IMG/VR virus record: IMGVR_UViG_3300030451_002683
Span: 48,061-103,497 of that record
Reading direction: 5' to 3' (one strand)
Length of the DNA: 55,437 bases
Origin: a virus
Shown piece after piece: positions 860-22,873 of this stretch. The notes below the pieces were generated by a model, which made no database searches, had not been told where the DNA came from, and saw only the letters and a program-made list of their open reading frames with translations. The stretch's first letter is position 1; every line of letters starts with the position of its first letter. The translations under genes were made by a program, and so were the position numbers.

Positions 860-1078
860 ATGGCAACTAAAACTATAAAATTCCTACAAGGTGGCGGCTT
901 TGTAGAGAGACAAACTAACGCTGAAACCGTTGAACAATTAAGAGCAGAGTTTCCAGATGATATTACTTCTAATGCATCTGTTGCTGTTAACGGTGTATCT
1001 GTAACTAATACTCACGCTATTTCTGAAGGTGATATTGTTGCAGCTGTTAATAATAATAAGTCTGGCGGTGATCAGTAA
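860..1078 (+). CDS. Ubiquitin-like (ThiS/MoaD-type beta-grasp) modifier precursor
   Basis: Starts at ATG 860 after AAGGAGG. The 72-aa product matches the beta-grasp layout of small sulfur-carrier/ubiquitin-like proteins: an N-terminal beta hairpin, one helix (residues ~22-30), a V-x-V-N-G strand near residues 41-45, then the S-E-G-D-I-V motif near 55-60 that corresponds to the G-D-x-V/I strand of ThiS and MoaD. It ends K-S-G-G-D-Q, so the Gly-Gly that such modifiers need for adenylation is masked by two residues (71-72). That is the form expected of a precursor trimmed by a JAMM peptidase, and one is encoded 2.9 kb downstream, as is an E1-like enzyme. A non-conjugating sulfur-carrier role is the main alternative, but ThiS and MoaD normally end directly in GG. 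Confidence 0.82.
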   Translation: MATKTIKFLQGGGFVERQTNAETVEQLRAEFPDDITSNASVAVNGVSVTNTHAISEGDIVAAVNNNKSGGDQ

Positions 1079-1363
1079 TTATTAACTTTATGTTATAACG
1101 TACCAGACAGTGACACTAGTGAGAAAAGGCGTTTAATCAGCGATACACTAAGGATGGATCTGTCTGGATTAACTTATAGGGCTGTAGTGACAGGCGAGTA
1201 ATAATTAGTATCATCATATAGCAATAGCTATCAATGCGTGGATGAGCCAACGTAAGTTGGATTACCTGAAATATGGTTGCTCTGACGCTAGGCCAACGAT
1301 TGGTTTGGGGATATTATTACTAACGAGGGTCAATCAGCCCTATATAACTTTTGGAGGAGAGAA
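1079..1363 (+). ncRNA. Structured intergenic RNA element 1 (Ubl to E2-like gene)
   Basis: This 285-base gene-free stretch is unlike a simple spacer. GTTATA (1092-1097) can pair with TATAAC (1343-1348), closing most of the interval. Inside are an 8-bp stem CCAGACAG (1103-1110) with CTGTCTGG (1160-1167), a hairpin at 1218-1231, a GNRA-type hairpin CCAAC-GTAA-GTTGG (1247-1260) flanked by possible outer pairs GCGT/ACGC (1236-1239, 1285-1288) and GAGC/GCTC (1244-1247, 1279-1282), a hairpin at 1293-1303 and one at 1326-1341. No T-run follows, so it is not an intrinsic terminator. It ends just before the Shine-Dalgarno of the E2-like gene. Function unknown; leader regulation or an RNA processing site are possibilities. 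Confidence 0.55.
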
Positions 1364-2698
1364 ATGATAGATTATAATAATTATGATTTAATCGTAGAGT
1401 CAAGAGACATTGATGATGTAATTGATTCTATCGAAACAGAAGACCTTGGTGATCACATATATTTCGGTCCCCAAGCAGATATTATGGAATTACTAAATAG
1501 TTTTAATAGAAATTATAATGCAGATTTAGAGATTACTAAAACATTTAAATGGAAACGTGGCACATATGATAAAGTAGCAAATTTAATGATGAAAGGTTTA
1601 GGATTTCAACGTAGACCTAGTGGTATGTATAACTTTTTGTCACGTGAAGACTATTTCAGAAGAAATCGTTGGGATTGGATACAAACTCAACTTAGAGAAA
1701 TGGATGCTATGATAACTAATTTGCGTTATTATAATGAAGAATGGTTAGATGATCCTAGTATTCTTGTAGAGTACAAAGAAAACTTTAAAAATTATTTATC
1801 AGAACAAGGAGAAAAAGCAGCTCCAATAGCAGATGGATTAGATATATATGATTCAGTGTGGTATAGATTATATGCACATTCTAGTAGTAGGTCAAATAAA
1901 AGATATATACTAAATACAGGTATTACATTTTCACCTCCTGCTATTAAAGTGTATAGTAGTGCAAATACAAGAGCTCAAACAGAAGCTACACATATTGCTG
2001 ATATACCATGTGATATGCAAGTTGAGTTAAATCTAATAAGTTATCCTATTAAAGATATGGTAGTAAACAAGCTTTCTTATGATAATCCAAAGTTTAATGT
2101 ATATAACTATGGTACTGTTCATCCTTTTGATAATAGAGGTAGACTTAAGTTTCCTTATATATCTGGAAATCATTACAGAGATAGTGGTAATATATTTGGT
2201 AATAGTGTATGCTGGGGTGATGATTCAACAAATATAAGCAATGCTATGGGTAGATATGATTTAACATCTTTGCTAATTCAAATACCTAATTGGGCTACTA
2301 GATATACTAATAATACTAATCCATATCACAATATTAAAGCTGCATATCATGGTGAGCCAAAGCTAATAAATGATGATTTTAGAGCTATATTTGGTACTAG
2401 TACACCAGATGATTGCTTTTATAGTCCATCAGGTGAAGATGATTATTGTGATACAGCAGAATGTGCACTTAGATCTAGATGTAGTATGTATAAAGATGCA
2501 TATCCTCAACCAGTATCACCAGAACAAGCTGAGCAGTTAACGCTTCAATGGGCTACTAGAATGGGTGGTATTAATACATCAACAGGTAATATTCATGGTG
2601 GTGAAGAGCCAATTGATACAGAAGCTATTTCACAAACAGTTAATGAGATGGTTGATGAACCTTGGCCTGATGAATCACCACAAGGTGACGAAATGTAA
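1364..2698 (+). CDS. Putative E2-like (ubiquitin-conjugating fold) protein with C-terminal Cys cluster
   Basis: The ATG at 1364 follows GGAGGAG. The 444-aa product contains a block that resembles bacterial and phage E2/UBC-like active sites: P264-Y-I, H270, then G-N-S-V-C283-W-G-D286. The P-h-I ... H ... G-x3-C-W-G-D pattern is what I would expect around the thioester cysteine (C283). Near the C-terminus is a cluster C351-x10-C362-x4-C367-x5-C373 that could bind Zn or an Fe-S centre. Residues 1-200 are mainly helical and of unknown role, and the whole protein is much longer than a minimal E2 (~150 aa). It sits between the modifier gene and the JAMM and E1 genes, which is the strongest reason for the E2 call. 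The assignment is an inference from the motif and the context, and the fold was not verified. Confidence 0.55.
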   Translation: MIDYNNYDLIVESRDIDDVIDSIETEDLGDHIYFGPQADIMELLNSFNRNYNADLEITKTFKWKRGTYDKVANLMMKGLGFQRRPSGMYNFLSREDYFRRNRWDWIQTQLREMDAMITNLRYYNEEWLDDPSILVEYKENFKNYLSEQGEKAAPIADGLDIYDSVWYRLYAHSSSRSNKRYILNTGITFSPPAIKVYSSANTRAQTEATHIADIPCDMQVELNLISYPIKDMVVNKLSYDNPKFNVYNYGTVHPFDNRGRLKFPYISGNHYRDSGNIFGNSVCWGDDSTNISNAMGRYDLTSLLIQIPNWATRYTNNTNPYHNIKAAYHGEPKLINDDFRAIFGTSTPDDCFYSPSGEDDYCDTAECALRSRCSMYKDAYPQPVSPEQAEQLTLQWATRMGGINTSTGNIHGGEEPIDTEAISQTVNEMVDEPWPDESPQGDEM

Positions 2699-2707
2699 GG
2701 AGGTTTT

Positions 2708-3577
2708 ATGCCTAACTTTGTAAGACGTAAAGCAATGATAATCAGAGATTCAGGGCGTAGTAGTAATTTTATTACGCCTTCCTTTGGTTTTGGTTGTGAA
2801 TACAAATGTAGTTATTGTTATATGCGTAGACATGTAAAAACAGGTCTATCAGTAGCAACAAATACACAAGAAATTATAGATACTATAGATGCTCACAATG
2901 GAAACTTAAAATGGCCTAAAGAACCTGATCAGACACATGATAAATATTACACATATGACTTCAGTTGTAATGAAGACTATGTAAAACATGCACAATATCA
3001 TGATTGGAAGATGTTGTTTGACTATTTTAAGAACAATGATAGAGCTATGGGAACGGCAGCTACTAAATATGTTAATGAGGAGTTATTAGACTATAATCCT
3101 AATCGTAAGATACGTATTAGATTTAGTGTAATGCCACAAAAGTATGCTAATATACTAGAACCTGGCACATCAACAATTGCTGATAGACTAAAAGCTATTA
3201 ACAAGTTTTGGGAAGCAGGTTATGATGTTCACATTAACTATTCACCTATAATTGTAGAAGAAGATGCTGGTATATTGTATCAGAATCTATTCAAACAAGT
3301 AGATAAGTATGTAGATGACGATATAAAAGAACATGTTAAGTGTGAGGTTATATTTCTTACACATAATCATGATATGCATGAACACAACATGAAGAAAGAA
3401 AGCACCAAACAAGCAGAAGAGTTGCTTTGGAAACCTGGAATCCAGGAACAAAAAACATCTCAATATGGTAATGTTAATATTAGATATAAACGACATTACA
3501 AAAATAGATTGATTGGCGCTTGGAAACATAGCCACAATGCAATATTACCGTGGCAAGAAATAAGATACATATTTTAA
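2708..3577 (+). CDS. Radical SAM enzyme, spore photoproduct lyase-like
   Basis: Starts at ATG 2708 with AAGGAGG upstream. The 289-aa protein carries C30-x3-C34-x2-C37 (G-C-E-Y-K-C-S-Y-C-Y), the radical SAM [4Fe-4S] motif with an aromatic residue before the last cysteine. It also has the R-I-R-F-S-x-M-P-Q, L-E-P-G-T-S and G-Y-D-V-H-I-N-Y-S-P-I-I-V blocks typical of the spore photoproduct lyase family, which reverses UV thymine dimers by SAM-dependent radical chemistry. It is somewhat shorter than bacterial SplB (~340 aa). Lying inside the ubiquitin-like module it might instead act on protein, but the sequence points to DNA photoproduct repair or a related reaction. Confidence 0.75.
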   Translation: MPNFVRRKAMIIRDSGRSSNFITPSFGFGCEYKCSYCYMRRHVKTGLSVATNTQEIIDTIDAHNGNLKWPKEPDQTHDKYYTYDFSCNEDYVKHAQYHDWKMLFDYFKNNDRAMGTAATKYVNEELLDYNPNRKIRIRFSVMPQKYANILEPGTSTIADRLKAINKFWEAGYDVHINYSPIIVEEDAGILYQNLFKQVDKYVDDDIKEHVKCEVIFLTHNHDMHEHNMKKESTKQAEELLWKPGIQEQKTSQYGNVNIRYKRHYKNRLIGAWKHSHNAILPWQEIRYIF

Positions 3578-3654
3578 GATGTGTCCGTGAGTCTCCCGTC
3601 AGTGTGAAATAGAACTACCGAGCAGGACACTCTTAATTAACTTGAGGAGAAAAA
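3578..3654 (+). ncRNA. Structured intergenic RNA element 2
   Basis: Between the radical SAM and the 94-aa gene, GTGTCC (3581-3586) pairs perfectly with GGACAC (3625-3630), enclosing 38 bases. The stem ends about 10 bases before the GAGGAG ribosome binding site at ~3643. There is no T-tract, so a terminator is unlikely. Confidence 0.45.
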
Positions 3655-3939
3655 ATGAGTTTTGTAACAGAAAATAGTATGAAAGCACATTACAAGAGAT
3701 TGTCTTGTAGAACTATTACAATAAATGGTGTTAGACTTGATCTTGAAGTTTATAAAACGCCTAATGGTATGACATTTGAAGTTGTAGAACATGTACCTGA
3801 TACTGTATTTGATGATAATTATGTATCAAGACATGAAACACATATACCTTGGGATAAAATAGTAGATGCTCCAGAAGAGCCTTTACCAGAAGAAATGGAA
3901 GATGATTTAGCAAACAACATATATGGAGGAGAAAAATAA
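3655..3939 (+). CDS. 94-aa hypothetical protein of the ubiquitin-like module
   Basis: The ATG at 3655 follows TTGAGGAG. The predicted protein has beta-strand-like segments in the first two thirds (T-I-T-I-N-G-V-R-L-D-L-E-V near residues 21-33; M-T-F-E-V-V-E) and an acidic, Pro-containing tail ending N-I-Y-G-G-E-K. The small size, beta-rich start and penultimate Gly-Gly invite comparison with a second modifier, but the long acidic linker is atypical and I see no clear beta-grasp match. Its stop overlaps the JAMM gene start (TAATG), so the two are translationally coupled and probably act together. Confidence 0.7.
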   Translation: MSFVTENSMKAHYKRLSCRTITINGVRLDLEVYKTPNGMTFEVVEHVPDTVFDDNYVSRHETHIPWDKIVDAPEEPLPEEMEDDLANNIYGGEK

Positions 3940-4907
3940 TGGAAGTATTAATACATAAAGAATCTTGGGATAAGATTATAAATTATGCTAAAGCTGCTTA
4001 TCACACAGAAAAAGCTGAGATAGGCGGGATGGCTGTAGTAACACAAGATGAAGATGGTGATTGGACTATTGAAAATCCAGTCATATTACCACAAGAAATA
4101 GCAGGGACTACGTGTGACCTAGATAAAGAAGAATTGGCTACGTATTATACTCAAATGGCTATGAAATACAAAGACCAGAAGTTTAGATTTTGTTGGTGGC
4201 ACAGTCATCACACAATGGAAGCATTCTGGAGTGGTACAGATTTATCTAGTATTGATGAGTATGGTGAAGGTGAATCAGATGTGTCATTTGCACTTGTTGT
4301 TAATCTAAAAGAGGAGTATAAATGCAGAATATCTGTATGGAAGCCAGTAGAAGTACATCAAGATGTTGAAATTAAAATACTAGATGATACACCTGAAATA
4401 GAAATACCACTTGAGATAGTTACAGAAGTTAAAGCTAAATGTAGGAAGCGTACTTATACAAATATAAGTTCTTACAAATCTGGTGGATCTGTGTTACAAT
4501 CAAAAAATCAAAAGCAATTATCAATTGGTAATTATAATTGGGCTACATACAATTGGCTTGATGATGATTTAGAAACAGGGCTAAAACCAACACAACAAGA
4601 AATAATTAACTTTGAAGCTAAACATGAGTATACTTGTGGTAAAATAACAGAATTTATCAGGCAATTCAATTTAGGCAGTTGGAATATGCATAAGTATAAA
4701 TCAGCAGTAACACATACAAACAAACTAATAGAACCTTATGGTCTTGCTATAGATACTTTAAATAAGAAAGAGCTTGAAGAATTTATAGAAATGGATAGAG
4801 AACCATGGGAACTAATAAATTGTATTGATCCAAAATACTTAGATATTGCTGAAAGTGTTCTTGATGCAATGTCTTATAACCGATCTTATGGAGGATATAC
4901 TATATGA
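3939..4907 (+). CDS. JAMM/MPN+ (JAB domain) metallopeptidase
   Basis: Starts at ATG 3939, overlapping the preceding stop by one base, with GGAGGAG upstream. The 322-aa protein has the complete zinc peptidase signature: Glu27 in A-E-I-G-G, then H88-S-H90-x7-S98-G-T-D101. JAMM enzymes remove ubiquitin-like proteins from targets or trim modifier precursors to expose Gly-Gly. Here the likely substrate is the G-G-D-Q tail of the 72-aa modifier. Residues ~1-150 form the JAMM domain; the remaining ~170 residues are an unrecognised extension with a Lys/Arg-rich loop and a helical end. The 3' end overlaps the E1 gene by four bases (ATGA). All active-site residues are intact, so it should be an active peptidase. 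Confidence 0.88.
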   Translation: MEVLIHKESWDKIINYAKAAYHTEKAEIGGMAVVTQDEDGDWTIENPVILPQEIAGTTCDLDKEELATYYTQMAMKYKDQKFRFCWWHSHHTMEAFWSGTDLSSIDEYGEGESDVSFALVVNLKEEYKCRISVWKPVEVHQDVEIKILDDTPEIEIPLEIVTEVKAKCRKRTYTNISSYKSGGSVLQSKNQKQLSIGNYNWATYNWLDDDLETGLKPTQQEIINFEAKHEYTCGKITEFIRQFNLGSWNMHKYKSAVTHTNKLIEPYGLAIDTLNKKELEEFIEMDREPWELINCIDPKYLDIAESVLDAMSYNRSYGGYTI

Positions 4908-5557
4908 GAAACTTAAGAAGTCAAGACATAGCAGATATATCAGGTATCATGTTTCATGTTGTAGGTTGCGGGGCTATTGGCAGCTCCGTAGCCACACAGC
5001 TTGCAAGACTTGGTGCTGATAGATTTACTCTTTATGATTTTGATAAAGTAGGAATAGAAAATGTAGGTGTTAGTCAATATGTGCATCAAGATATTGGTAA
5101 AACTAAAGTTGAAGCATTATATAAACACCTTACAAAAATAGACCATTTTATTAAAGTAAATAGAGTTCCTGGTAAATTTAATAATTATATGGGTAGTAAA
5201 GAAGATATACTAATACTTGGTTTAGATAGTATGTCTGCTCGTATGGAAATAGTTAAATTACTTGCAGAGTGCCCTGATAAACCAACGTTTGTTATTGACG
5301 GTAGGATGGGTGCAGATCAATATCAACAGTATATATATGATAATATTACTGTTAAAAAATATGAGAAGGATTGGTATTCTGATGAAGATTCTGATCCAGA
5401 ACCATGTACTCGTAAGGCTACATCTTACTGTAGTAATATGAGCGGAAGTTTTATAACTAATACTGTTAAAAACATAGTTATGAAACAACCATACTTTAAA
5501 GAAATTATTTTCAACTTTTCAACATTAATACTTGATAAAAAGAAATTAGTTTCTTAA
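4904..5557 (+). CDS. E1-like / ThiF-MoeB family adenylating enzyme
   Basis: The ATG at 4904 overlaps the JAMM gene by four bases. The 217-aa protein is a compact E1 superfamily domain: a nucleotide-binding G-C-G-A-I-G-S glycine loop near residues 23-29, then L-Y-D-F-D-K-V ... E-N-V-G-V-S-Q ... G-K-T-K, the standard order of Asp, Asn, Gln and Lys residues that bind ATP-Mg. Two downstream cysteines, C168 (E-P-C-T-R) and C176 (S-Y-C-S-N), lie where ThiF/MoeB proteins have their crossover-loop catalytic cysteine; C176 is the better candidate. The paired CxxC zinc site of MoeB is absent. It should adenylate the Gly-Gly terminus of the modifier and pass it on. At 217 aa it is near the short end for the family. 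Confidence 0.85.
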   Translation: MRNLRSQDIADISGIMFHVVGCGAIGSSVATQLARLGADRFTLYDFDKVGIENVGVSQYVHQDIGKTKVEALYKHLTKIDHFIKVNRVPGKFNNYMGSKEDILILGLDSMSARMEIVKLLAECPDKPTFVIDGRMGADQYQQYIYDNITVKKYEKDWYSDEDSDPEPCTRKATSYCSNMSGSFITNTVKNIVMKQPYFKEIIFNFSTLILDKKKLVS

Positions 5558-5659: not shown

Positions 5660-6163
5660 GTGAATAACGTAGATATTTCTAAGCAAAATGGTATTGCTAA
5701 AAATGTATTAGAAGCAAAAGCCAAAAACGAATCAAATGAGAAATCTTTTGATGAATCTCATGACAGAAGACATGATGAATGGAAATCACCTGAAATAGAT
5801 AAGTTAGCTGAAGCATTAGCTAAAGCTCAATCTGAAATGGAAGGTGCAAAGAAAGAAAGTACAAACCCATTCTTTAAGTCTAGTTATGCAGACTTACATG
5901 CAGTAATCAAATCTTCATTTCCATACTTAAGTAAACATGGTTTATCTGTAAGTCAAGGTAATGAAATGATTATGGGAGCTGTATGTGTAACAACAACATT
6001 AATGCACTCTTCTGGGCAATGGATAAGATCTAAAGTTAAACTTCCATTGGCTAAGAAAGATGCTCAAGGTGTAGGTTCTGCTATTACATATGGCAGAAGA
6101 TATGGATTATCAGCAATAGTAGGTATCGCTCAATATGATGACGATGCTCAATCAATTTCTTAA
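5660..6163 (+). CDS. erf: ERF-family single-strand annealing recombinase
   Basis: A GTG start at 5660 is chosen because AAGGAGG lies 5-11 bases upstream and no better ATG exists before the conserved region. The 167-aa protein has the ERF signature from about residue 50: A-L-A-K-A-Q ... N-P-F-F-K-S-S-Y-A-D-L, then a V-G-S-A-I-T-Y-G-R-R-Y block and a C-terminal D-D-D-A. ERF proteins anneal complementary strands and help circularise or concatenate phage DNA, as in P22. The first ~45 residues are charged and variable. It is followed after 13 bases by the SSB-like gene, a usual replication/recombination pair. Confidence 0.88.
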   Translation: MNNVDISKQNGIAKNVLEAKAKNESNEKSFDESHDRRHDEWKSPEIDKLAEALAKAQSEMEGAKKESTNPFFKSSYADLHAVIKSSFPYLSKHGLSVSQGNEMIMGAVCVTTTLMHSSGQWIRSKVKLPLAKKDAQGVGSAITYGRRYGLSAIVGIAQYDDDAQSIS

Positions 6164-7114: not shown

Positions 7115-7221
7115 TATTTGAGATACTTTTATATATAATACTATTATTAATAGTAGGATTAGTTTTAACAATACTTATTACTAAGCCACATGAATGGGAG
7201 AATTTACATGGAGATGATTAA
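7111..7221 (+). CDS. Small single-pass membrane protein (36 aa)
   Basis: The ATG at 7111 follows AGGGAGG. Residues 2-24 are almost entirely Ile/Leu/Val/Phe/Tyr, a clear transmembrane helix, followed by a short polar tail. It overlaps the previous gene by four bases and the primase-helicase start by 14 bases. Possible roles include membrane tethering of replication or a small host-modifying peptide; neither is shown by sequence. Confidence 0.6.
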   Translation: MIFEILLYIILLLIVGLVLTILITKPHEWENLHGDD

Positions 7222-8974
7222 AGAAATAGCATTTGGAGTTAGCAATAGAGGTAATTTTCAATCTAAAGATGAAGTCTGGGAATTACAAGGTACTGACACT
7301 GATCTATTTGTATCTTTATATGATTATGATGAAAGTGTTGTTGCGTATTATGCTAAAAAAGAAAGTTTATCAGGATATGATGGTAATATATTTATGCCAG
7401 AAGAGTTTATTTTAGATGTTGATGGTAAAAATATAAGAGATGCTAGAGATAAATTAATGGGACTATCAAATGTATTAGATGATTGTGGTTTATATTATAG
7501 AGTATATTTCAGTGGAACAGGTTTTCATGTTGGTATACATAAATCTGCATTTAAATGGGAACCAAGTCCTAATTTACACGTAAGAGTAAAAGAAGAGCTA
7601 ACTAAAGCTGGTATTTATGAATTTGCAGATCCTTCTGTTACTGACAAAACAAGAATCATACGTCTATTAAATACTAAAAATACTAAATCTGGATTATATA
7701 AAGTGTGTATAGAAGATAACTTACAAATATTGTCTTCATCAGATAAAGTATTTAAAGAAGAGCTAATCAAATTAGCGTCAGAGCCTAGAAATATAGAATA
7801 CGAAGATATTGAAATGAACGCTCCAATATTTGATGTAACAGATAAAGAAAAACCTAAAGAAAAACCTGAAGTTAAAGTTAGAAGTACTAGAGACCCTGTT
7901 TCTACAACTTGTATACAAAAAATGTTAGATGGTGCACCGCATGGTAAACGTCACATGGTAGCTCTTAGAATAGCTTCACATCTTAGATGGAACTTTCCAG
8001 AAAATATAGTAAGACTTATAATGGAAGATTGGCGTGTAAGAGTTAGTCAAGATGCTCAAAGTGAGTTTAAGAAAGAAGAAATGGACAACATTGTAGAAGG
8101 TTGTTATACAGGGCATGATGGTCAAGGTTATAGATATGGTGCTGATGATCCAGTTATAAAGTTTTATTGTGACTCTAGATGTACATTACATAGAGGAGCT
8201 AAAGCAGAAAATATGATGGATTCTAGTAGCATGGAAGATGAACTTATAAACTTTTACGCTCAAGATCTAAAGCCTTTAAATCTAGGTGAGCCATATGGGC
8301 AGGAGTTTCCTGTATATCCAGGCGAAACTGTCATAATACAAGCTCCACCTGCTAGTATGAAGACTATGTTATTGCAAAATTGGGTTAATTACTTTAAGAG
8401 ACCTACGTATTTTGTAGAAATGGAGATGTCACCAAGACAAATATGGTCTAGATTTGTGCAAATAGAGATGGGGTGGGATGAACATCAGTTAGCTGATCAT
8501 TATAAACAAATGAAAAATGGTATGGATAAAAGGTTTGAATGGCTAACTGTAGACTATTCAGCTCCATATGCGCATGAATTAGAAAGAAGAATCACTAGCC
8601 TACCTGTTAAACCAGAAATAGTAATTGTTGACCATTTGGGCCTATTTAAGAGCAAACAGAAGGATAACAATATGAAAGTTGAGGAAGCATCTCAAGCTAT
8701 TATGGAACTTGCAGTAAGACAAAATGTAATTGTGTTTGCTGTTAGTGAGGTAAGTAAGGCAGCTTTCAAAGAAGGTATGGACATATCATCTTCTAGAGGT
8801 TCATTTAGGATTGCATATAATGCAAATAAATTAATATCTTTAAAACCATACAAAAACAAAGAAACAGGTCTTGTAGAGATTATAGATATTAAATCAGATA
8901 AAAATAGAGAAAAAGAGCATTTATTTGCTCGATTAACAGTTAATAACGTAAGAATAGAAAAGGGAGTATTATAA
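7208..8974 (+). CDS. Primase-helicase (AEP primase-polymerase domain fused to RecA-like ATPase)
   Basis: The ATG at 7208 is preferred over the one at 7190 because GGGAG lies 7 bases upstream. Residues ~60-190 show archaeo-eukaryotic primase features: D70-x-D72 in I-L-D-V-D-G, the S-G-T-G-F-H107 motif, and an R-I-I-R-L-x-N-T-K-N-T-K-S-G segment typical of PrimPol proteins. Residues ~230-330 have a helical PriCT-like linker with a Cys/His set. Residues ~370-588 are a RecA/DnaB-type ATPase with P-loop A-P-P-A-S-M-K385-T386 and Walker B E-I-V-I-V-D-H-L. It would prime and unwind phage DNA. No DNA polymerase gene is visible, so chain extension presumably uses the host enzyme. Confidence 0.82.
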   Translation: MEMIKEIAFGVSNRGNFQSKDEVWELQGTDTDLFVSLYDYDESVVAYYAKKESLSGYDGNIFMPEEFILDVDGKNIRDARDKLMGLSNVLDDCGLYYRVYFSGTGFHVGIHKSAFKWEPSPNLHVRVKEELTKAGIYEFADPSVTDKTRIIRLLNTKNTKSGLYKVCIEDNLQILSSSDKVFKEELIKLASEPRNIEYEDIEMNAPIFDVTDKEKPKEKPEVKVRSTRDPVSTTCIQKMLDGAPHGKRHMVALRIASHLRWNFPENIVRLIMEDWRVRVSQDAQSEFKKEEMDNIVEGCYTGHDGQGYRYGADDPVIKFYCDSRCTLHRGAKAENMMDSSSMEDELINFYAQDLKPLNLGEPYGQEFPVYPGETVIIQAPPASMKTMLLQNWVNYFKRPTYFVEMEMSPRQIWSRFVQIEMGWDEHQLADHYKQMKNGMDKRFEWLTVDYSAPYAHELERRITSLPVKPEIVIVDHLGLFKSKQKDNNMKVEEASQAIMELAVRQNVIVFAVSEVSKAAFKEGMDISSSRGSFRIAYNANKLISLKPYKNKETGLVEIIDIKSDKNREKEHLFARLTVNNVRIEKGVL

Positions 8975-13792: not shown

Positions 13793-16700
13793 TTATTTTA
13801 CGTTTTTACAAATCTCTCTTCTTTTTTGGTCTTCAGATTTTTTATTTTCATCTTTTAATTCTCGTCTTTGCAGTCTTTGTTTTGCAGCTTCAATTAAACT
13901 ACTTTTGTTTAACTTTTGAATAGATTGACCTTGAGTAATTAACCTTTTAATAGCTGAATAAGTATAGCCATCCATTCCAAAAGAAGGGCTAAATGAAAAT
14001 CCATCCTGACCATTCATTCTACCGCCACCCATAAGAGCAAAGAAATCATTATATTGTACCCTGTTTTTAAATGCTGGACTTATACCTTCATTAGCTACTA
14101 GTCCAGGAAAAACTTCTTCAACAATAGGTTTAATTTTAGGGTCTAATTGCTTCATTAAAGTTAAGTATTTAAATGGATGCATATACTGATTGTTTATTTC
14201 TAATTCTTGTATATATGATAGTAATTTAGCGTTTCCATCTATAGTTGCAGCGTCTTTAATTCCTGCTTCAGTTAATAAATCTCTAAAGAAGTTCATAGTT
14301 TTATCGTAATCTTTACCCATACCGCCTGATGTTCTATTGTCATATAGTTTTCCTATAGGAGAGCTTTGATAGTTTTGGAACATCTGCAAATGATTGTAAT
14401 GAAATTCAGGATTGTTTCTTGCTTGATGAAACATTCTAATTTCTTTGAAAGGTATATCTTCAATAAATGATTTTCTTTGAAAGAACGTTCTCCATAAGTA
14501 ATCTTGCTTTGCAATCAATCTTATAGTGTTATCTATTTTATTTATAAACTCTGCATTAGCAATTTTATGATCCATTGTTTCAATTTGACCATTTCTTAAT
14601 CTTACTAAAAACTTAATCATTCTTTTATAGTTTGTATTTGGTTTTGTAAATAAAGGTACAGGTCTATTATTGTAAACACCAACACCATTTTTGCTAACCA
14701 TAAATTGATTACCTACAAATCTATATAAAAATGCTTGTCCAAATTTCATATAACCATCATACATTTGATTATAAATTTCTGTTTCTATAGTTTCTATATC
14801 TTTTGGATTTAACAAATAATCTGTAAGCTCATTATCTCTAAGTCTTCTTCCTGACATATTTTCAAGACCAGCATTAGAAAATAGTTCTCTATAATCTTTT
14901 TTATATGCTTTAACAATATCTCTTACTTTAGCGTCTATAGCAGCCATTTTACCTTTACCTGATTGACCCCATAAATTCCATATAGCAAAAGCTTGCGATG
15001 TACTTTCTAGTATATCTTCACTAGTAGTTATATCAACAAGATTAAATTCAGGCAAGTTTTTAATTGTAGGGTTCTTTGTATATTCTCTTGATAATAATGG
15101 TCTTAATTCTTCTTCTTTAGCTGCTATCTCAGCATTTAATTTATCTAATATATACTTTTTTTGTTTAAAAGATTTGTTAGATGCTGCTACCTTAGCTGCT
15201 GATCTTTTTAATCTTATAATACCAAATTTAGCAGAGTTTACATCTTTAATCATTTCAGGTAACGTTGCCATAATAGCGTCTACATCCGCATTGCTTACAC
15301 CATTACCATCAAGCAATAAATTTTCAACTCTTATATATCTTCTTAAAGCATCTCCATTCATAACATGGTTATCTATAGACTTTCCTCTTCCGTCTCTATA
15401 TATAATATTTAAAGCCTTTTCAGCAAATGAACCAGTAGATGAGTTATAATTAATAGCGTCATTGTAATTTTCTATAACTTTATCAGGTATAACAGAAGCG
15501 GTTCTCCAATTGTAAGATTTTTCATTTCCAAATCTATCTGTAAAAGTTCTTGGTTGAACTCCAAATAACCTTCCCATAAGTGGAGAATTATTTCTATAAA
15601 TATAAGAATTAGTTGTTGGATCTTGATAATAATACACTGATTTAAATAGCATATCGTCTATATTTTTAACGCCACCTACATAACTTTCCCAAGTAGATAA
15701 CATATCTTCATAACCTACTTGTTTAGAGCCTTCATTTCCAAATTTTTGTCTTCCTGGCATAACACTAGATAGTTTAGTTCCATGATTTAAAAGTTCTTTT
15801 ACCATTAATTTATCATATAATTCTAATTCAAAATCATTTTTACCTTCTTTTACAGGAAACCCTTCTGCAGTTACAAGTCTTTTAACAAAAGCTCTAAAAG
15901 GTTTTCTATTTTGATTGCCAAGATCAGATCTAGAAGTATTATTAAAACCTACAGCACTTAAATCTTTAACTTGAGAACTTGTTACTGAACCTTCCATAGC
16001 AGGAAACAATAACCTATCAGTAACTGCTCCGTAATTATTTTGTTGCAATAAATCAATAATTTCTTGAGCATTTTGAGCCATATGTATTTTAAAGTCTCTA
16101 GGATTATAATCAATTTCTATTTGGAAAAAAGTTCCTGGAGTTTCTGCTGGATACCTTAATAAAACTCTCTTGCCATCAGGACTTAATGCAGCTTTATTAT
16201 GTAATGAATTTAAAGGCGCTACTAAATTTTGTACTGCACCAATACCTCTTTGCATAACTCTAGAATTAGCATCATAATTTTCCCAAGCTTTTCTATTTGC
16301 GGCTAAATTTTCAGAAGCTAATTCAATTCTAGAAGCAGGAACATCTATTCCGTCTGTATTAATACCTATAACGTTTTGTTGTACACCTCTTTTTGTTGCA
16401 TCAAGCATTTCTCTTGTAGTTCCCCAAAAAGCATCACCCATATCTACATCATAATCACCTTCAAATATCTGCCAAACATCTAAAGGATTTAAGACTAACT
16501 GATTACCAGCGTCTCTCTTTAAAAATTCTTTTATTCTTAATAAAGTAAAATCATTAGGTCTTGTTCTTGGGTATCTTAAAAACTCCATAGATATATCATA
16601 TTTAGAAAGTTCTGGAACTGATCTTATAAAGTCATGTAATGCCCCTAAAGGTTCTGCACTATTAGCCATAGCGTCCCAAACCTCAGTTCCTTCTCCACTA

Positions 16701-19700
16701 AATTTTGTCTTTTTATATAATTCACCTTTTGTTCTACCTTTAGAATCAGGTATTAACATTTGAGGTTCACTGCCTTTTATAAATATGTATTTATGGTCAC
16801 CAAATTTATGCTTTAAAATCCAGCCTCCATCTTTATTCTTTACAAATTTATTAGCAAAATTTTTAGCTTTCCCTTTACCCTTTTTCATAGCTGCTAATTG
16901 CTCGTTAGCTTGAGCAAGATTGTCAACAACCCAAACATCAGCCCTATCTCTTCTTCCAGTTCTTGTATCTACACTCATAAGGCTAGGATGTTCAAACATA
17001 TCTACTTTTACTTCATATATTTGTTCTGATAATTTTTGTGCTCCTGTAAGTTCATATATAACATCTTTAGCTCTTACAATTTCATATTCACCTTTTACCA
17101 TTTCTCTAGAAATAAGATAAACATCTTTAGCTCCATCTCCAAATTCTATGTTACCTTCTCTTGCGCTATACGCAGGTACAGCTTCACCATAAGATAATAT
17201 TCTTCCATTAGCATCTACCATAGTAGGGTCTAAAGCATTTTTTCCTTCATAATATGGAGATTTAGATAAGACCATTTTTTGTCCCCAATTATTTTTAATT
17301 GTAGGGTCACTTTTTTGAGTATAAGGAGCCAAGGCTTGATCTATTAAAGATTTCTTAAATTGATTTAAAATCATATCTTGACCTAATGCGCTTGGTCTTG
17401 CATATGCGCCAGCTATTTCCATATAACTCATAAGAGTACCTAGCTGACTTCCTGATCCACCGTTTGCTATCATTTCATGCAAGTCTTCACCCTTCATACC
17501 TTTAACTAATTTTAACATTTCAGCTTCATAAGAAGGCCTACTCATAACTTCATTAATCATTTCAACTGCATTTTCTAACTCACGTTTATGATATTCTTTA
17601 AATGTAGCATCTACTTCTGCATCACTCATATAATTTTGCATAATAGTTGCAGATAATTTAGAAGGAGTAACTTTGTCTGGTACTTTAATCATACCTATAG
17701 ATTCTAATGGTAAACTCATCAAGTTATCTATTTTTGCACCTTGAAGTAATTGTTCAGGAGTTAATTCTGTATAATTTTCAGAAAAAGCTTTCATTTTATC
17801 AGCAGTCCCCATCATAACCATATCTACTTTTGAGTTTTTACCTTTAAATAGATTACTTAAGTTAGGGTCATAAACAAACACAGTTTTGCCATATAAGAAA
17901 GTATTTTCTCCATGCGAACTTACTATCGGTTTAAATATATTCTTTCCTTTTACACCGCTTACAAGCGATAAAAACCTTGCCATATCTTTAGATATAAAGG
18001 TAATACTGTCATATGTAGACACTTCTTTCCTGCCACCAGAGTAAGTATTCCAATCTGGTGGAGTAACATTATTTTTCTTCCACATATCAGCATATTTATT
18101 AACAAATACATCAAAAGTTTCTCTTTGAGAATACTTGCCTGAATAAACATCTCCAGCATCTGGAGCAACATCATTTACAACTGCAATATTATACTCTTTT
18201 CCTGCTTCTCTTCCTAAATATTTTTGAACAACTTTTGCTTCAGTTCTATTTAAAGCACCTGTATTTAAAGCAAAGTCAAACATAGTATTAAGTTCTTCTC
18301 TAGAAGTTCTTTTTGCAGAAGGAGTCCATATTAAGTTAAATCTTTTTAAAACGCCTTGAATAACGCCATCACCACTACGAGCGTTTAAGTATTTAATAAA
18401 ATCATTTCTTTGAGAACCTTTCATAAAGTTTTCAAATGTTAATACTTTCAACGCTTCAGTATGTAAATCCAAGTCAAATTCAGTATTAGCAGTAATTTTA
18501 TTATATAATGCTTCTAATTTTTGGTAAGCATGTCTATAAGATTGTCTAGGGTTACCTTGAACATCAAGCAAATCTTTTACTACTCTTTTATACATTTCAA
18601 CAAACGCTTTATTAATACCAGAATAAGAAGCTTTATCTAATAGTAAAACTTGTTTTGAGTTACCTAAAACAAACTTCCACATATTTTGAGCTTCTATTTC
18701 TTGTTGAACTTTTAGTGCTCTTTGATCTCTAATTTTATTTAATTTAGGATTAAGCATTTCCTTATTAGCATTAATCTCTAATATATCTATACGTTGTAAA
18801 GGTCTAAATGTATCTCCTAATGTAACATCATCAAAAGTTATACCATCTAAATAACCTTTAAGATTTAATTCTAATTCTCTTATAAAAAAGTCTGTAAAAG
18901 GATTTTTGAAACCACTTTTTTCAACTTCTTTTGCTTTAAACGTACCTCTATTATAACTATATACAGGGAAACTTTCTGATTGAACATAAGTGCTTCTTAC
19001 AGCCTGAATGTCTTGTATAACTTCTTTCTTTTGAACTGCAGATAAATTATCAAATTCAACATCATTTTTAAATCTAAGTCTATCAACTATTTCTCTAAAA
19101 CCAGTATTACTTAATCCACCTTCCACTTCTCCAACAGGATCTCTAAATATTCTATTTTTAAAGAACTCATTTCTTAATTCAGTTTTATTTAAATCTGTAT
19201 TATAAGGGTCCGCTTCTGGGAAATACTTCTTAAAAAATTGATCTGGAGTTATAGTTGCATTAGTTCCAAAATGGTCTATTTGACTACCTATTTGGTCATT
19301 AATATACTTTCTAGCATTACCTATTATCTGTTCTATTTCAGTAAAGTTAATACCATAATTTTCTAAAGAGTTTAAAAGCTCTTGTCTAGTTTTCTTTATC
19401 GCTAATCTTTTATTATCAACAACCCAAACATCTTCACCATTTTTATTTACTTTTCTTAATACATCCATTTTCATTAACAAAGAACTAGCATATTTTAAAG
19501 CATGTGGGTCTTTATAATTTTTAGCAGAAATTGAACCTAATATATCTTTTAAAGTAGATGTGCCTTCAATAGCTTCAATAGCGTCTATTAAAATTTTTCT
19601 AGCAGATTCTGTACCTTGAGTTTCTACATTACTCATCATTTGCTCAATAGTTCTAAAAGTTTCTTTGCTTCTAAAATATACCCTGTTACCTTCATTAACT

Positions 19701-22700
19701 TTTACAAGTTTACCAGCCATAACCGTTTCAGAATCTTTTGATATTTTTCTTACAGCTTCATTATATTTTCTTGCAATTGATAAATTTTCACCTGACAAAT
19801 GAGATGTTTGTAGTAATCTTCCTGTCCAACCATTTGCTTTGTCTGACCTAATAGGATTATATTCAAACAAAGAAAAGACATCAACTTCTCCAGTCTGCCT
19901 TCCTAATTCTGTACTAAAATCCATAGCAAATTTTAACTGTTGCATGTCTAGATTAGAACCTTCTACATTACGCTTTAATATATCATATACAATTTCATGT
20001 CCTATAGTATCAATAAATCTTGGATCTGTAGGTATACCTTTAGATTCAAAAAATAACTGAAGTTCTCTTAACTGTTGTACAGTAACACCTTCATAAGTAC
20101 CATCAGTTTTTTTAACATTATCTCTTACAGGGAAACCTTTAGCAGAAAGAATATTATTAACAAAGTTTCTAAACAATCTTAGCTCAACCAACTTAGTATC
20201 ATTACCAGTTGTTTCTGCTAACTTCTTACCATCAACTATAGGTAAAGTAGAAACGTCTCTTACAATTGTTTGGTTTATACCACTCTTTTTAAATATACCT
20301 GCAGTATTTAAAGCTGCTTCCCATTCATTCCATTCAGGATTAATTTCAGGATCTCTTTCAAATTTTCTTACAAAATCAGTAACTAAACGTTTACCTTTTG
20401 CTATATTAATTTGTCTTGCCATTCCATGCATATCAGAAAACTTAAAATCAAAACCAGTATTACCAGTATTTTCATTTATAATTTTTTCGCCACCTTTAAT
20501 AGCTTTATATATAGACTCAAAATTTTGCTCACTAATCTGCAAAGCTTTGTCAGATCTTTTTGAAGTTAATTGATTTTCAGCAATAAATTCGTTTATAGCA
20601 TTTAAAGAAACATCAATATCATTTAATATCTCAACTCTATCTATAGGAGATAATTTTCTTCCTTCTGCAATAATATCATCATATTTACCTTCTTTTATAG
20701 CTTTTTGCAATCCAGAATCAACATCAATTTCTTTAGGAATAGTACTTCCTGAAGATTTTATTTCAAAGCCTATTTTAATATTATTAATTGCTTCTGCGCC
20801 TGTATTTACTATAGCATCAGTAATACTTGATTCTGCTCTTTCTACAGCCTGTTTGTAATAATCTGCCATACCAAAGATAGTATTAGAACCAAATTCTTTA
20901 ATAATTGTATTTTGTATTTCTAAAGCATCCTTCTCAGATATGCTTTCTAAATCTCTAGCAAACCCTCTTTTATTTCCAGATGTTGCATAAAGTTTATAAA
21001 ACTGTTTAAATACACTTAAATCTCTAGTAGAAAAAGCAGCACTTTTTTCACCCAAAGGTAATGGAGTAGATATGTTTTCTATATTTTCTACAGACATACC
21101 CATATTATCCATTTTTTGAGAAATTCTTTTTAATCTTGCATCATAAGATAAAGGGTCTAAAAAATTGTCTCTACTAACATCGTATGAAGGTATTATTTCT
21201 CCAATATGCTTCATATTTACACCTAAGTTTTCAAGACCTGATCTTAATCTTTTCATTCTAGCTTCATTATGATCTTTTCTTTTAGCATAACCATGTCTAT
21301 TTAACCATGCTCCTACTACCATATTAAATATAAAATCTTGTTTATTTGTAGCGTCCCATCCACTTTGATATAAATTTATTAATTCACCATTATTCATAAT
21401 AGCACTACCAATACCTGCGTGTATAAATGATAAAGCATTCCATTCTTCACTTAATGATGCTTTCATAATATCTTTACCAAGAAGTTTGGCTTCAGATCTT
21501 AATGCTTTCTTTAATAAAATTTCTCTACTTTCATCAGTAACTTCAAGCTTTAAGTTTCTTAACCATCTATCAGCTTCCATTCTAGGTCTACTAAAGTTAA
21601 AATCATCAACAACACCATCTATGTTTATTGTTCTAGAATATTTACCATCAACTCCAAATCTGTTTGATTTACCAAACCATTTAGACATTTGTCTTAACTG
21701 ATGAAATGTTTTGCCTTCAAAAAATTTATCTGGTTTCCAATAAGCAGACATACCTGCTCTAAAGTCTGAACGGCCCATAGCATCTTTTTTAAATAATCCT
21801 TTAGATTGTGAAGTAGTAAAACCTAAACCCACCTTAGGTAATACTAATTTCATACCACCAAATGCAGCACCTAAAGCCGCACCATGTTGAGGCATATGCC
21901 AATCATAAGGTCTTTCTTCATCCCAAGAGTGAAATCTTTCTTTTATACCATCCATACTACCAAACATTAATGCTTCGTGTAATATAGAACCTAAACCTTT
22001 ACCTGTAGGACCAGGATACCTAGTAGAAAATACGTCTATAAAATCTTGTATAGGTCTTTTATTATAATATTGAGTCCATAATCTTATTAAATCATCACCT
22101 TGAGTACGAGTTAATATTCCTTGATTTACCTTTTGTTTTACCGCTTCTTCTATATATTCTCTAGAACCTTTAACAAAATTTGCAGGATTTGATATTGCTG
22201 GATCAACTTTTGCTCTTTGAACTTTTTGCCATAAACCTTTACTTAACTGAGCATTAAAGTTTGCAGCCTGTATATTACCTTCTAAGCCTGCTTTTTTAGC
22301 TATTTCAGTCTCTTTTAACTTTTGTTTAACAGGAGTTATACCTTTAACTCCAACTTTGCCTTTAAACCAAGATTCAGGAAGAACTTTAGCAGTAGCTCTT
22401 GCTACAGGTTGTGAAACGAATTGACCTGTAATTGCTTGAGGAGCAATAGGTATTCTAGTTTTTACACCAGGTATTTTAGGATATTGACCAGGAAGCATAA
22501 ATGCAGCAATATTACCAATAGTTTGACCATATTGAGCAGCAGTAGTAGGAAGACCTGTGCCAAATGCCTGTCTTTCAGCTTGGCTATAAGTTGGGTCTGC
22601 AAATACATCTTCTGCTTCACCACCCATAACTAATTGATCAAGGTCTAAATAATCAGCAATACCAAAAGTAGCGGTATCTGCTAATCCCCATAAAGTACCA

Positions 22701-22873
22701 CCAACAAAATCGACAAGATTGTCCATTCCGCTTTGGCCTTCTTTAACCATGCTTTCAAAATTGTTAAAACCTTGAGACTGTAAGTATCCTGAATAATCAG
22801 GATTACCTGTATTATTGACATTGTTATTAGGGCTATTTCCTAATAAATTTAATAAATCTTGATATTGTTCCAT
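13793..22873 (-). CDS. Giant virion protein, putative single-chain DPBB RNA polymerase (3026 aa)
   Basis: This is the largest gene, one uninterrupted frame from ATG 22873. Residues 2100-2147 resemble the catalytic double-psi beta-barrel of cellular RNA polymerase beta-prime: R2100-Y-P2102, then L-V-L-N-P2130-L, then F-E-G-D2140-Y-D2142-V-D2144-M-G-D. In beta-prime the order is R-A-P, then L-H-P-L, then A-D-F-D-G-D, with nearly the same Pro-to-Asp spacing (10 versus 9). The D-x-D-x-D triad rather than D-x-D-G-D is the type described for giant virion RNA polymerases of crAss-like phages. The N-terminus (~50-130) has hydrophobic Gly/Ala-rich stretches suiting membrane passage. No T7- or N4-type polymerase motif was found. 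Expected role: packaged in the capsid, injected with the DNA and transcribing early genes. Large parts (1-1900, 2300-3026) remain unassigned. Confidence 0.7.
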   Translation of the reverse strand: MEQYQDLLNLLGNSPNNNVNNTGNPDYSGYLQSQGFNNFESMVKEGQSGMDNLVDFVGGTLWGLADTATFGIADYLDLDQLVMGGEAEDVFADPTYSQAERQAFGTGLPTTAAQYGQTIGNIAAFMLPGQYPKIPGVKTRIPIAPQAITGQFVSQPVARATAKVLPESWFKGKVGVKGITPVKQKLKETEIAKKAGLEGNIQAANFNAQLSKGLWQKVQRAKVDPAISNPANFVKGSREYIEEAVKQKVNQGILTRTQGDDLIRLWTQYYNKRPIQDFIDVFSTRYPGPTGKGLGSILHEALMFGSMDGIKERFHSWDEERPYDWHMPQHGAALGAAFGGMKLVLPKVGLGFTTSQSKGLFKKDAMGRSDFRAGMSAYWKPDKFFEGKTFHQLRQMSKWFGKSNRFGVDGKYSRTINIDGVVDDFNFSRPRMEADRWLRNLKLEVTDESREILLKKALRSEAKLLGKDIMKASLSEEWNALSFIHAGIGSAIMNNGELINLYQSGWDATNKQDFIFNMVVGAWLNRHGYAKRKDHNEARMKRLRSGLENLGVNMKHIGEIIPSYDVSRDNFLDPLSYDARLKRISQKMDNMGMSVENIENISTPLPLGEKSAAFSTRDLSVFKQFYKLYATSGNKRGFARDLESISEKDALEIQNTIIKEFGSNTIFGMADYYKQAVERAESSITDAIVNTGAEAINNIKIGFEIKSSGSTIPKEIDVDSGLQKAIKEGKYDDIIAEGRKLSPIDRVEILNDIDVSLNAINEFIAENQLTSKRSDKALQISEQNFESIYKAIKGGEKIINENTGNTGFDFKFSDMHGMARQINIAKGKRLVTDFVRKFERDPEINPEWNEWEAALNTAGIFKKSGINQTIVRDVSTLPIVDGKKLAETTGNDTKLVELRLFRNFVNNILSAKGFPVRDNVKKTDGTYEGVTVQQLRELQLFFESKGIPTDPRFIDTIGHEIVYDILKRNVEGSNLDMQQLKFAMDFSTELGRQTGEVDVFSLFEYNPIRSDKANGWTGRLLQTSHLSGENLSIARKYNEAVRKISKDSETVMAGKLVKVNEGNRVYFRSKETFRTIEQMMSNVETQGTESARKILIDAIEAIEGTSTLKDILGSISAKNYKDPHALKYASSLLMKMDVLRKVNKNGEDVWVVDNKRLAIKKTRQELLNSLENYGINFTEIEQIIGNARKYINDQIGSQIDHFGTNATITPDQFFKKYFPEADPYNTDLNKTELRNEFFKNRIFRDPVGEVEGGLSNTGFREIVDRLRFKNDVEFDNLSAVQKKEVIQDIQAVRSTYVQSESFPVYSYNRGTFKAKEVEKSGFKNPFTDFFIRELELNLKGYLDGITFDDVTLGDTFRPLQRIDILEINANKEMLNPKLNKIRDQRALKVQQEIEAQNMWKFVLGNSKQVLLLDKASYSGINKAFVEMYKRVVKDLLDVQGNPRQSYRHAYQKLEALYNKITANTEFDLDLHTEALKVLTFENFMKGSQRNDFIKYLNARSGDGVIQGVLKRFNLIWTPSAKRTSREELNTMFDFALNTGALNRTEAKVVQKYLGREAGKEYNIAVVNDVAPDAGDVYSGKYSQRETFDVFVNKYADMWKKNNVTPPDWNTYSGGRKEVSTYDSITFISKDMARFLSLVSGVKGKNIFKPIVSSHGENTFLYGKTVFVYDPNLSNLFKGKNSKVDMVMMGTADKMKAFSENYTELTPEQLLQGAKIDNLMSLPLESIGMIKVPDKVTPSKLSATIMQNYMSDAEVDATFKEYHKRELENAVEMINEVMSRPSYEAEMLKLVKGMKGEDLHEMIANGGSGSQLGTLMSYMEIAGAYARPSALGQDMILNQFKKSLIDQALAPYTQKSDPTIKNNWGQKMVLSKSPYYEGKNALDPTMVDANGRILSYGEAVPAYSAREGNIEFGDGAKDVYLISREMVKGEYEIVRAKDVIYELTGAQKLSEQIYEVKVDMFEHPSLMSVDTRTGRRDRADVWVVDNLAQANEQLAAMKKGKGKAKNFANKFVKNKDGGWILKHKFGDHKYIFIKGSEPQMLIPDSKGRTKGELYKKTKFSGEGTEVWDAMANSAEPLGALHDFIRSVPELSKYDISMEFLRYPRTRPNDFTLLRIKEFLKRDAGNQLVLNPLDVWQIFEGDYDVDMGDAFWGTTREMLDATKRGVQQNVIGINTDGIDVPASRIELASENLAANRKAWENYDANSRVMQRGIGAVQNLVAPLNSLHNKAALSPDGKRVLLRYPAETPGTFFQIEIDYNPRDFKIHMAQNAQEIIDLLQQNNYGAVTDRLLFPAMEGSVTSSQVKDLSAVGFNNTSRSDLGNQNRKPFRAFVKRLVTAEGFPVKEGKNDFELELYDKLMVKELLNHGTKLSSVMPGRQKFGNEGSKQVGYEDMLSTWESYVGGVKNIDDMLFKSVYYYQDPTTNSYIYRNNSPLMGRLFGVQPRTFTDRFGNEKSYNWRTASVIPDKVIENYNDAINYNSSTGSFAEKALNIIYRDGRGKSIDNHVMNGDALRRYIRVENLLLDGNGVSNADVDAIMATLPEMIKDVNSAKFGIIRLKRSAAKVAASNKSFKQKKYILDKLNAEIAAKEEELRPLLSREYTKNPTIKNLPEFNLVDITTSEDILESTSQAFAIWNLWGQSGKGKMAAIDAKVRDIVKAYKKDYRELFSNAGLENMSGRRLRDNELTDYLLNPKDIETIETEIYNQMYDGYMKFGQAFLYRFVGNQFMVSKNGVGVYNNRPVPLFTKPNTNYKRMIKFLVRLRNGQIETMDHKIANAEFINKIDNTIRLIAKQDYLWRTFFQRKSFIEDIPFKEIRMFHQARNNPEFHYNHLQMFQNYQSSPIGKLYDNRTSGGMGKDYDKTMNFFRDLLTEAGIKDAATIDGNAKLLSYIQELEINNQYMHPFKYLTLMKQLDPKIKPIVEEVFPGLVANEGISPAFKNRVQYNDFFALMGGGRMNGQDGFSFSPSFGMDGYTYSAIKRLITQGQSIQKLNKSSLIEAAKQRLQRRELKDENKKSEDQKRREICKNVK

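Follow-up and report, generated by a model that had tools for sequence, protein, structure and literature searches.

Can a bacterial virus carry a complete ubiquitin-like (Ubl) conjugation pathway of its own? The question is raised by a 55,437-nucleotide (nt) stretch of the IMG/VR virus record IMGVR_UViG_3300030451_002683 (positions 48,061–103,497 of the record; hereafter the window), in which genes at 860–5557 encode a Ubl modifier, an E2-like protein, a JAMM metallopeptidase and an E1/ThiF-fold adenylating enzyme. A sequence-only reading of this DNA had proposed such a phage-borne set, and the four open reading frames (ORFs) lie where it had placed them (Table 1). Its proposal of the gene set is borne out, as all four genes and their motifs are present and their order is maintained in relatives. 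The locus therefore probably encodes a JAMM-matured Ubl-conjugation pathway that acts on proteins of the infection, a reading built on the observed gene set, the integrity of its motifs, its conservation and co-occurrence, and on the predicted fold of the modifier.

Scans of viral contigs identified 7 loci with the E2-like protein, 27 with the JAMM protein, 29 with the E1 and 24 with the Ubl. A scan with the E1 alignment returned 331 candidate stretches, a number that counts stretches encoding an E1 relative rather than full four-gene sets, and the best 80 of the 331 were kept. Gene order was evaluated in those 33 related viral loci whose sequence reaches 4.6 kb or more upstream of the E1 gene, some of these loci being near-copies of one another. 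The E2-like, JAMM and E1 genes are present in all 33 loci, the Ubl gene and thereby the complete set in 32, and the order Ubl–E2–JAMM–E1 is retained in 31. Owing to this fixed order and to the invariant key residues described below, the set is far beyond chance. Averaged over all pairs of eleven close contigs, identity amounts to 91.6% for the Ubl, 79.9% for the E1, 73.9% for the JAMM protein and 54.8% for the E2-like protein, so that the Ubl is the best conserved of the four. Ubiquitin, too, is conserved beyond its enzymes. In four of five better-separated pairs, the ratio of nonsynonymous to synonymous substitution rates (dN/dS) of the Ubl is approximately 0.11–0.14. The set belongs to the core of a large uncultured phage family and has a counterpart in the Crassvirales.

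The modifier matches Pfam ThiS at 6.5e-4, just under the cut-off. Its AlphaFold2 model, with a predicted local distance difference test (pLDDT) score of 83, exhibits the E-E-H-E-E order of a beta-grasp fold, and the top PDB matches in Foldseek are the Caldiarchaeum ubiquitin (6fj7, 8e-4) and the ThiS-like protein MTH1743 (1ryj, 8.7e-4), with template modelling (TM) scores of 0.65–0.67. The beta-grasp assignment made for the 72-residue protein is thus upheld by prediction. The KxGG motif, which contains the conserved glycine, is invariant in 50 of 50 Ubls, while the residues past it number 0 in 6 sequences, 1–4 in 38, 8–9 in 3 and 31–60 in 3. This variable tail behind an invariant motif, with six Ubls ending at the GG itself, fits the prediction of a trimmed precursor. 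The sequence-only reading would have abandoned the pathway if the small protein were not a beta-grasp, if C283 of the E2-like protein lay outside a UBC-like site, or if close relatives always lacked the GG and the E2-like gene. Two of these three do not apply, because the Ubl is predicted to be a beta-grasp, and neither the GG (50/50) nor the E2-like gene (33/33) was ever lost in the relatives examined.

Both remaining enzymes retain their active-site residues, and the JAMM motif, the E1 motif and the GG-DQ tail that had been named earlier are real and intact. The JAMM protein matches Pfam JAB (8e-5, above the cut-off), Prok-JAB (5.6e-5, just below it) and the PADLOC JAB model (1.1e-7); its top PDB sequence match is weak (6fjv, E 0.33). 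The metal site is intact, with the E, H and H ligands present in 70 of 70 relatives, plus one truncated row, and the S and D in 71 of 71. The E1 preserves the adenylation motifs GCGAIGS, D47, N53, K68, D108 and R113. In addition, C168 within EPCTRKATSYC, which the earlier reading had not mentioned, is invariant in 73 of 73 sequences and occupies what we take to be the place where conjugation-type E1s carry their catalytic cysteine; conservation makes it the candidate. The E1 matches Pfam ThiF at 1.9e-19, the E1 part of the PADLOC E1–E2 proteins of the cyclic-oligonucleotide-based anti-phage signalling system (CBASS) at 2.9e-15, and, as its best NCBIfam match, ThiF at 1.8e-21. It scores under the curated equivalog cut-offs of both ThiF (76.8 versus 159 bits) and MoeB (38.9 versus 266 bits). 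Searched against the PDB, the phage E1 profile finds UBA5 (3.6e-11) and UBA6 (1e-10) ahead of MoeB (1.3e-7) and ThiF (6e-5). By profile comparison, the enzyme is nearer to the E1s of Ubl conjugation than to MoeB or ThiF.

The 444-residue protein encoded between the Ubl and the JAMM protein is defined by the motif [HFY]-P-[YF]-I-S ... C-x-G-[DN]. C283 and P264 are each conserved in 59 of 59 relatives and P320 is also invariant; position 263 is H in 29, F in 23 and Y in 7 of these sequences, and position 265 is Y or F. A downstream module of four cysteines, a probable metal site, is wholly invariant in 35 sequences, and its members are conserved in 56–58 of 59 in the wider set. The AlphaFold2 model (pLDDT 76) runs from a long helix through an antiparallel meander to the cysteine at the end of a short strand, and on into two helices, a predicted order compatible with the UBC/RWD fold. 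Foldseek against BFVD with this model retrieved its own family first, followed at E-values of 2.6e-3 to 4.8e-3 by four other viral proteins with no detectable sequence similarity: a 420-residue protein, a podophage protein, a crAss-like phage protein and a 435-residue protein of cr128_1 (probability 0.92). From their lengths, we infer that the 420-residue match is the protein at the E2 position of the Flavobacterium phage Fpv1, and that the 435-residue match is the one located between the Ubl and the JAMM protein in cr128_1. A Terrestrivirus E2 at rank 28 of the same search (E 2.1) was taken as chance, as was CINP, presumably an RWD protein, at rank 47 of the PDB search.

The best profile alignments of the 444-residue family to the crAss E2, to PRTRC protein B, which is a Pfam Prok-E2_D protein, and to a Xanthomonas jumbo-phage protein all fall at C283. 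In a control, C283 was paired with a cysteine in only 5 of 160 unrelated proteins. Because the alignments converge on this cysteine as so few unrelated proteins do, the protein likely works like an E2. As to the placement of C283 in a UBC-like site, the motif, the position and the profiles favour it, but no UBC fold was matched in the PDB.

From these features, we infer the following course for the chemistry. The JAMM peptidase would trim the modifier behind KxGG, taking off DQ in the window and between 0 and 60 residues in relatives. Next, the E1 would adenylate the exposed glycine with ATP and hold the modifier as a thioester on C168, and the modifier would be handed to C283 of the E2-like protein and subsequently to an amine on the target. 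The JAMM peptidase could also take the modifier off the target. No stand-alone E3 was seen, so the four-cysteine module may help to choose the target.

Several observations weigh against a conjugation pathway. Position 263, where canonical E2s have a histidine, varies, and the HPN motif of canonical UBC E2s is lacking. The 444-residue protein has no match in Pfam, PHROGs, NCBIfam or PADLOC, including none to Prok-E2_D, the alignment to PRTRC B being confined to the cysteine, and its 20–35 relatives have no Pfam match either. A PDB profile search with the E2 alignment produced coiled-coil noise only, and Foldseek of the model against the PDB gave no significant fold match. Each of the convergent profile alignments is insignificant when taken singly (E 0.07 for crAss, 0.07 for PRTRC B and 0.13 for Xanthomonas). 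A tblastn search of cultured phages with the E2-like protein found nothing, and the phage group has no cultured member. Finally, the Ubl and E1 sequences also resemble ThiS and ThiF, which would accommodate use as a sulfur carrier, the rival weighed below.

Equivalent sets occur in other phages. In crAss001 (Crassvirales, Steigviridae), gp79-gp78-gp77-gp76, annotated as hypothetical, hypothetical, metalloprotease domain and ThiF, follow the same order as the window, with a Ubl-like protein, a conserved-Cys protein (C-x-G-x-G-P-I), a JAMM protein and an E1; in this phage and its kin, the set lies between the primase and uracil-DNA glycosylase genes. The crAss001 Ubl differs in its tail, K-I-K/R-S-G-A (SGA) with a long extension, in contrast to the GG and DQ of the window. 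The protein at its E2 position is tied to that of the window by fold search and position only, and its E1 bears an N-terminal extension. By hhalign, the E1s (2.3e-71) and JAMM proteins (97.7% probability) of the two families are homologous, and there is a hint of kinship for the Ubl (2e-4, probability 45). In Fpv1, an equivalent set follows a uracil-DNA glycosylase gene and an ORF that by eye resembles a primase. In the E1 tree, the window family (99/96), the Crassvirales with Fpv1 (100/97) and PRTRC (100/100) form three separate groups, divided by long branches, so that the tree does not show the direction of descent among them. In cr106_1 (2699–3902 of the locus piece), an annotated HNH endonuclease gene separates a 92-residue ORF from the C-terminal extension and looks to have been inserted near the Ubl tail, in contrast to the one continuous Ubl-like gene of crAss001.

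The Xanthomonas jumbo phage PhiXhv-12 (1736–5612 of the locus piece) has a three-gene version beside topoisomerase genes, with an E1 homologous to that of the window (1.5e-18). Its gene sizes are very different: a 140-residue protein ends in KASGG, and an 892-residue protein contains HPHMAV..GSLCLGS, which resembles the motif of prokaryotic E2s, and a Cys-rich C-terminus. No JAMM motif was found in the ORFs read around this cluster, consistent with a modifier that already ends in GG. A ThiF match in the Acinetobacter 'phage' MD-2021a was disregarded because its neighbourhood (moeB, acsA, kdp) is of bacterial type. One scan of GTDB genomes with the E1 recovered only ordinary bacterial ThiF (30–43%), and thus no bacterial or prophage copy was found at that sensitivity.

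Among cellular and plasmid systems, PRTRC resembles the window in clustering a stand-alone Ubl (C), an E2-like protein (B), a JAB protein (A) and a ThiF protein on a mobile element, and PRTRC ThiF is among the best annotated matches in a tblastn search of plasmids. By gene content, we take PRTRC to correspond to operon type 6d of Iyer et al. 2006. The window E1 nevertheless falls under the cut-off of PRTRC_ThiF TIGR03736 (33.7 versus 144.75 bits), a very long branch sets the PRTRC E1s apart as a clade of their own, and the Ubls are not recognisably related. The PRTRC cluster also adjoins a ParB-family gene, whereas no PRTRC ParB-like protein is present among the window neighbours. Filing the set as PRTRC was dropped on the grounds of the cut-offs and the separate clade. 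Caldiarchaeum subterraneum supplies the closest PDB fold of the Ubl, together with an Rpn11-like JAMM protein as the weak match noted above, and its ubiquitin precursor is trimmed by a JAMM peptidase. In contrast to the window set, this is an archaeal cellular system with a canonical E2 and a RING E3, and sequence identity is low.

The genomic setting bears on the targets. The set lies within the replication module in every lineage seen; in the window, ERF-family and helicase-primase genes follow it, the latter lying 1.1–3.4 kb downstream of the E1 in 55 of 59 related loci, and the structural genes are on the opposite strand. The sequence-only reading had suggested virion proteins or a host conjugation system as targets, for which no support was found. 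Placement in the replication module in three phage sets instead favours a role in replication or recombination, and gene context makes proteins that replicate or recombine DNA during infection plausible targets. A broader proposal, which we regard as possible but rather doubtful, is that unrelated phage lineages (the window family; the Crassvirales with the Flavobacterium Fpv phages; the Xanthomonas jumbo phage) keep their own Ubl pathway at the core of the replication module and would use reversible tagging to regulate proteins of the replisome or of recombination, with the four-cysteine module as a built-in ligase part. Such control would be akin to that of eukaryotic ubiquitin and SUMO on PCNA. 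Two further genes within the cluster, absent from the sequence-only reading, are accessory. The radical S-adenosylmethionine (SAM) gene is missing or placed elsewhere in many relatives; since its position differs, it moves within these genomes, and it was dropped as a pathway member because it is optional and mobile. The 94-residue ORF occurs in a minority of relatives.

Table 1. Features of the Ubl-conjugation locus and its surroundings (window coordinates; aa, amino acids)
Feature	Coordinates	Strand	Description
Ubl modifier	860..1078	+	72 aa, beta-grasp (predicted), ends ...NNNKSGGDQ (KSGG then DQ)
Structured noncoding element	1176..1346	+	invariant frame GGGCTGTAGTGACAGGCGAG...CTAACGAGGGTCAATCAGCCC, exchangeable insert
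E2-like protein	1364..2698	+	444 aa; candidate catalytic C283 in [HFY]P[YF]IS-x(n)-C-x-G-D
Candidate E2 catalytic Cys283 codon	2210..2212	+	invariant in relatives; C283-W-G-D = 2210-2221
Four-Cys module C351/C362/C367/C373 of E2-like protein	2414..2482	+	probable metal site
Radical-SAM spore-photoproduct-lyase-family protein, accessory	2708..3577	+	TIGR03886 1.1e-85; SPL 3.1e-21 (Pfam)
Accessory 94-aa ORF	3655..3939	+	no assigned function; minority of relatives
JAMM/JAB metallopeptidase	3939..4907	+	322 aa; E27, H88-S-H90-x7-S98-x2-D101 intact
E1/ThiF-fold adenylating enzyme	4904..5557	+	217 aa; candidate catalytic C168, codon 5405-5407
ERF-family single-stranded-DNA-annealing protein	5660..6163	+	directly downstream of E1
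DnaB-like helicase/primase	7190..8974	+	downstream context gene

The main rival to conjugation is a sulfur-carrier system, in which a ThiS/CysO-like Ubl, a ThiF-like E1 and a JAMM peptidase for release or maturation (as Mec+ serves CysO) would deliver sulfur to a modified nucleotide, tRNA or amino acid, with the 444-residue protein as the sulfur acceptor instead of an E2. The ThiS and ThiF matches given above and the radical-SAM gene found within the stretch in some relatives are in keeping with this system. We consider it unlikely, as the E1 is far under the ThiF and MoeB cut-offs and nearer to UBA5 and UBA6 in the PDB, neither a sulfurtransferase nor a ThiG-like gene was seen in the neighbourhood, and the radical-SAM gene is an optional member of the spore-photoproduct-lyase family. 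Moreover, Iyer et al. 2006 (PMC1779556) report that operons for thiamine and for Mo/W cofactors contain no JAB gene.

If the chemistry is conjugation, it could still be aimed at the host, tagging and disabling host proteins or the Ubl defences CBASS Cap2/Cap3, Bil and Bub, or stripping host conjugates. Bil and Bub are bacterial anti-phage Ubl systems, and counter-defence genes are usually patchy and accessory. The present set keeps its place next to replication genes and occurs in every related contig that could be tested, and stripping host tags alone would need no dedicated Ubl or E2-like protein, which makes this use improbable, notwithstanding the E1 match to CBASS and the reported action of the CBASS Ubl system against phages (PMC10097602). 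CBASS type II, Bil and Bub share E1, E2 and JAMM chemistry with the window but are host defence genes, whereas the phage-borne set has its own short Ubl and separate E1 and E2 proteins; no cyclase or effector was seen in the window, and the PADLOC matches are at the domain level only. A virion-assembly device seems very improbable. Its precedent is the phage-borne pair of Ubl (I) and JAB plus NlpC (K) in lambda-type tail clusters, which operate without E1 or E2 and outside a replication module (PMC1779556). The window set occupies the replication strand block, facing structural genes on the other strand, and no NlpC/P60 partner or tail cluster was found with it. The conjugation pathway remains the probable reading.

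The Ubl and E2 genes are separated by a 285-nt noncoding stretch, to which the sequence-only reading had not drawn attention. The frame of the element at 1176–1346 constitutes a closing stem, and its insert is swapped wholesale among relatives; 14 versions of 80–171 nt, including flanks, were found in the window and further related loci. Rfam gave nothing above threshold for this element, only a chance match, and it has the look of a modular phage RNA of a new kind. Another hairpin-like element, CCAGACAG...CTGTCTGG, lies at 1102–1167; in two relatives its core ACACTAGTGAG..GATACACTAAG, nearly unchanged, serves as the insert of the element described first.

The 104,488-base record resembles two related genomes of about 53 kb arranged head to tail. 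Its first 48 kb repeat the gene order of the window, the pieces that match being 65–94% identical at the nucleotide level, and record bases 3–311 contain the end portion of another E1 gene. The record is probably a chimeric or concatenated assembly of two phage genomes, which leaves the cassette unaffected because other contigs repeat it. Elsewhere in the window, the structural (minus) strand encodes giant proteins of 3026 (13793–22873), 2034 (27720–33824) and 1339 residues (33824–37843); Pfam recognises neither of the latter two, nor several of their smaller neighbours. The TerL protein is at best approximately 27% identical to those of diverse podophages.

Complete E1–E2–JAB sets have been described in bacterial operons only (Iyer et al. 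2006, PMC1779556), and a 2021 survey of crAss-like phages (Yutin, PMC7886860) contains no Ubl-conjugation terms. No description of a complete phage set was found in the open-access literature; the subscription papers on Bil and Bub lay outside this search, and an earlier report is possible. We therefore regard the complete phage set as provisionally new. The bacterial Ubl systems known so far are host weapons against phages or plasmid genes without a known role. If the set is core to phages, bacterial viruses would themselves tag proteins and would not merely be the targets of such systems. A role is thereby proposed for four gut-phage genes now labelled hypothetical, metalloprotease and thiamine biosynthesis, and since crAss001 can be propagated on Bacteroides intestinalis in the laboratory, the question is directly testable.

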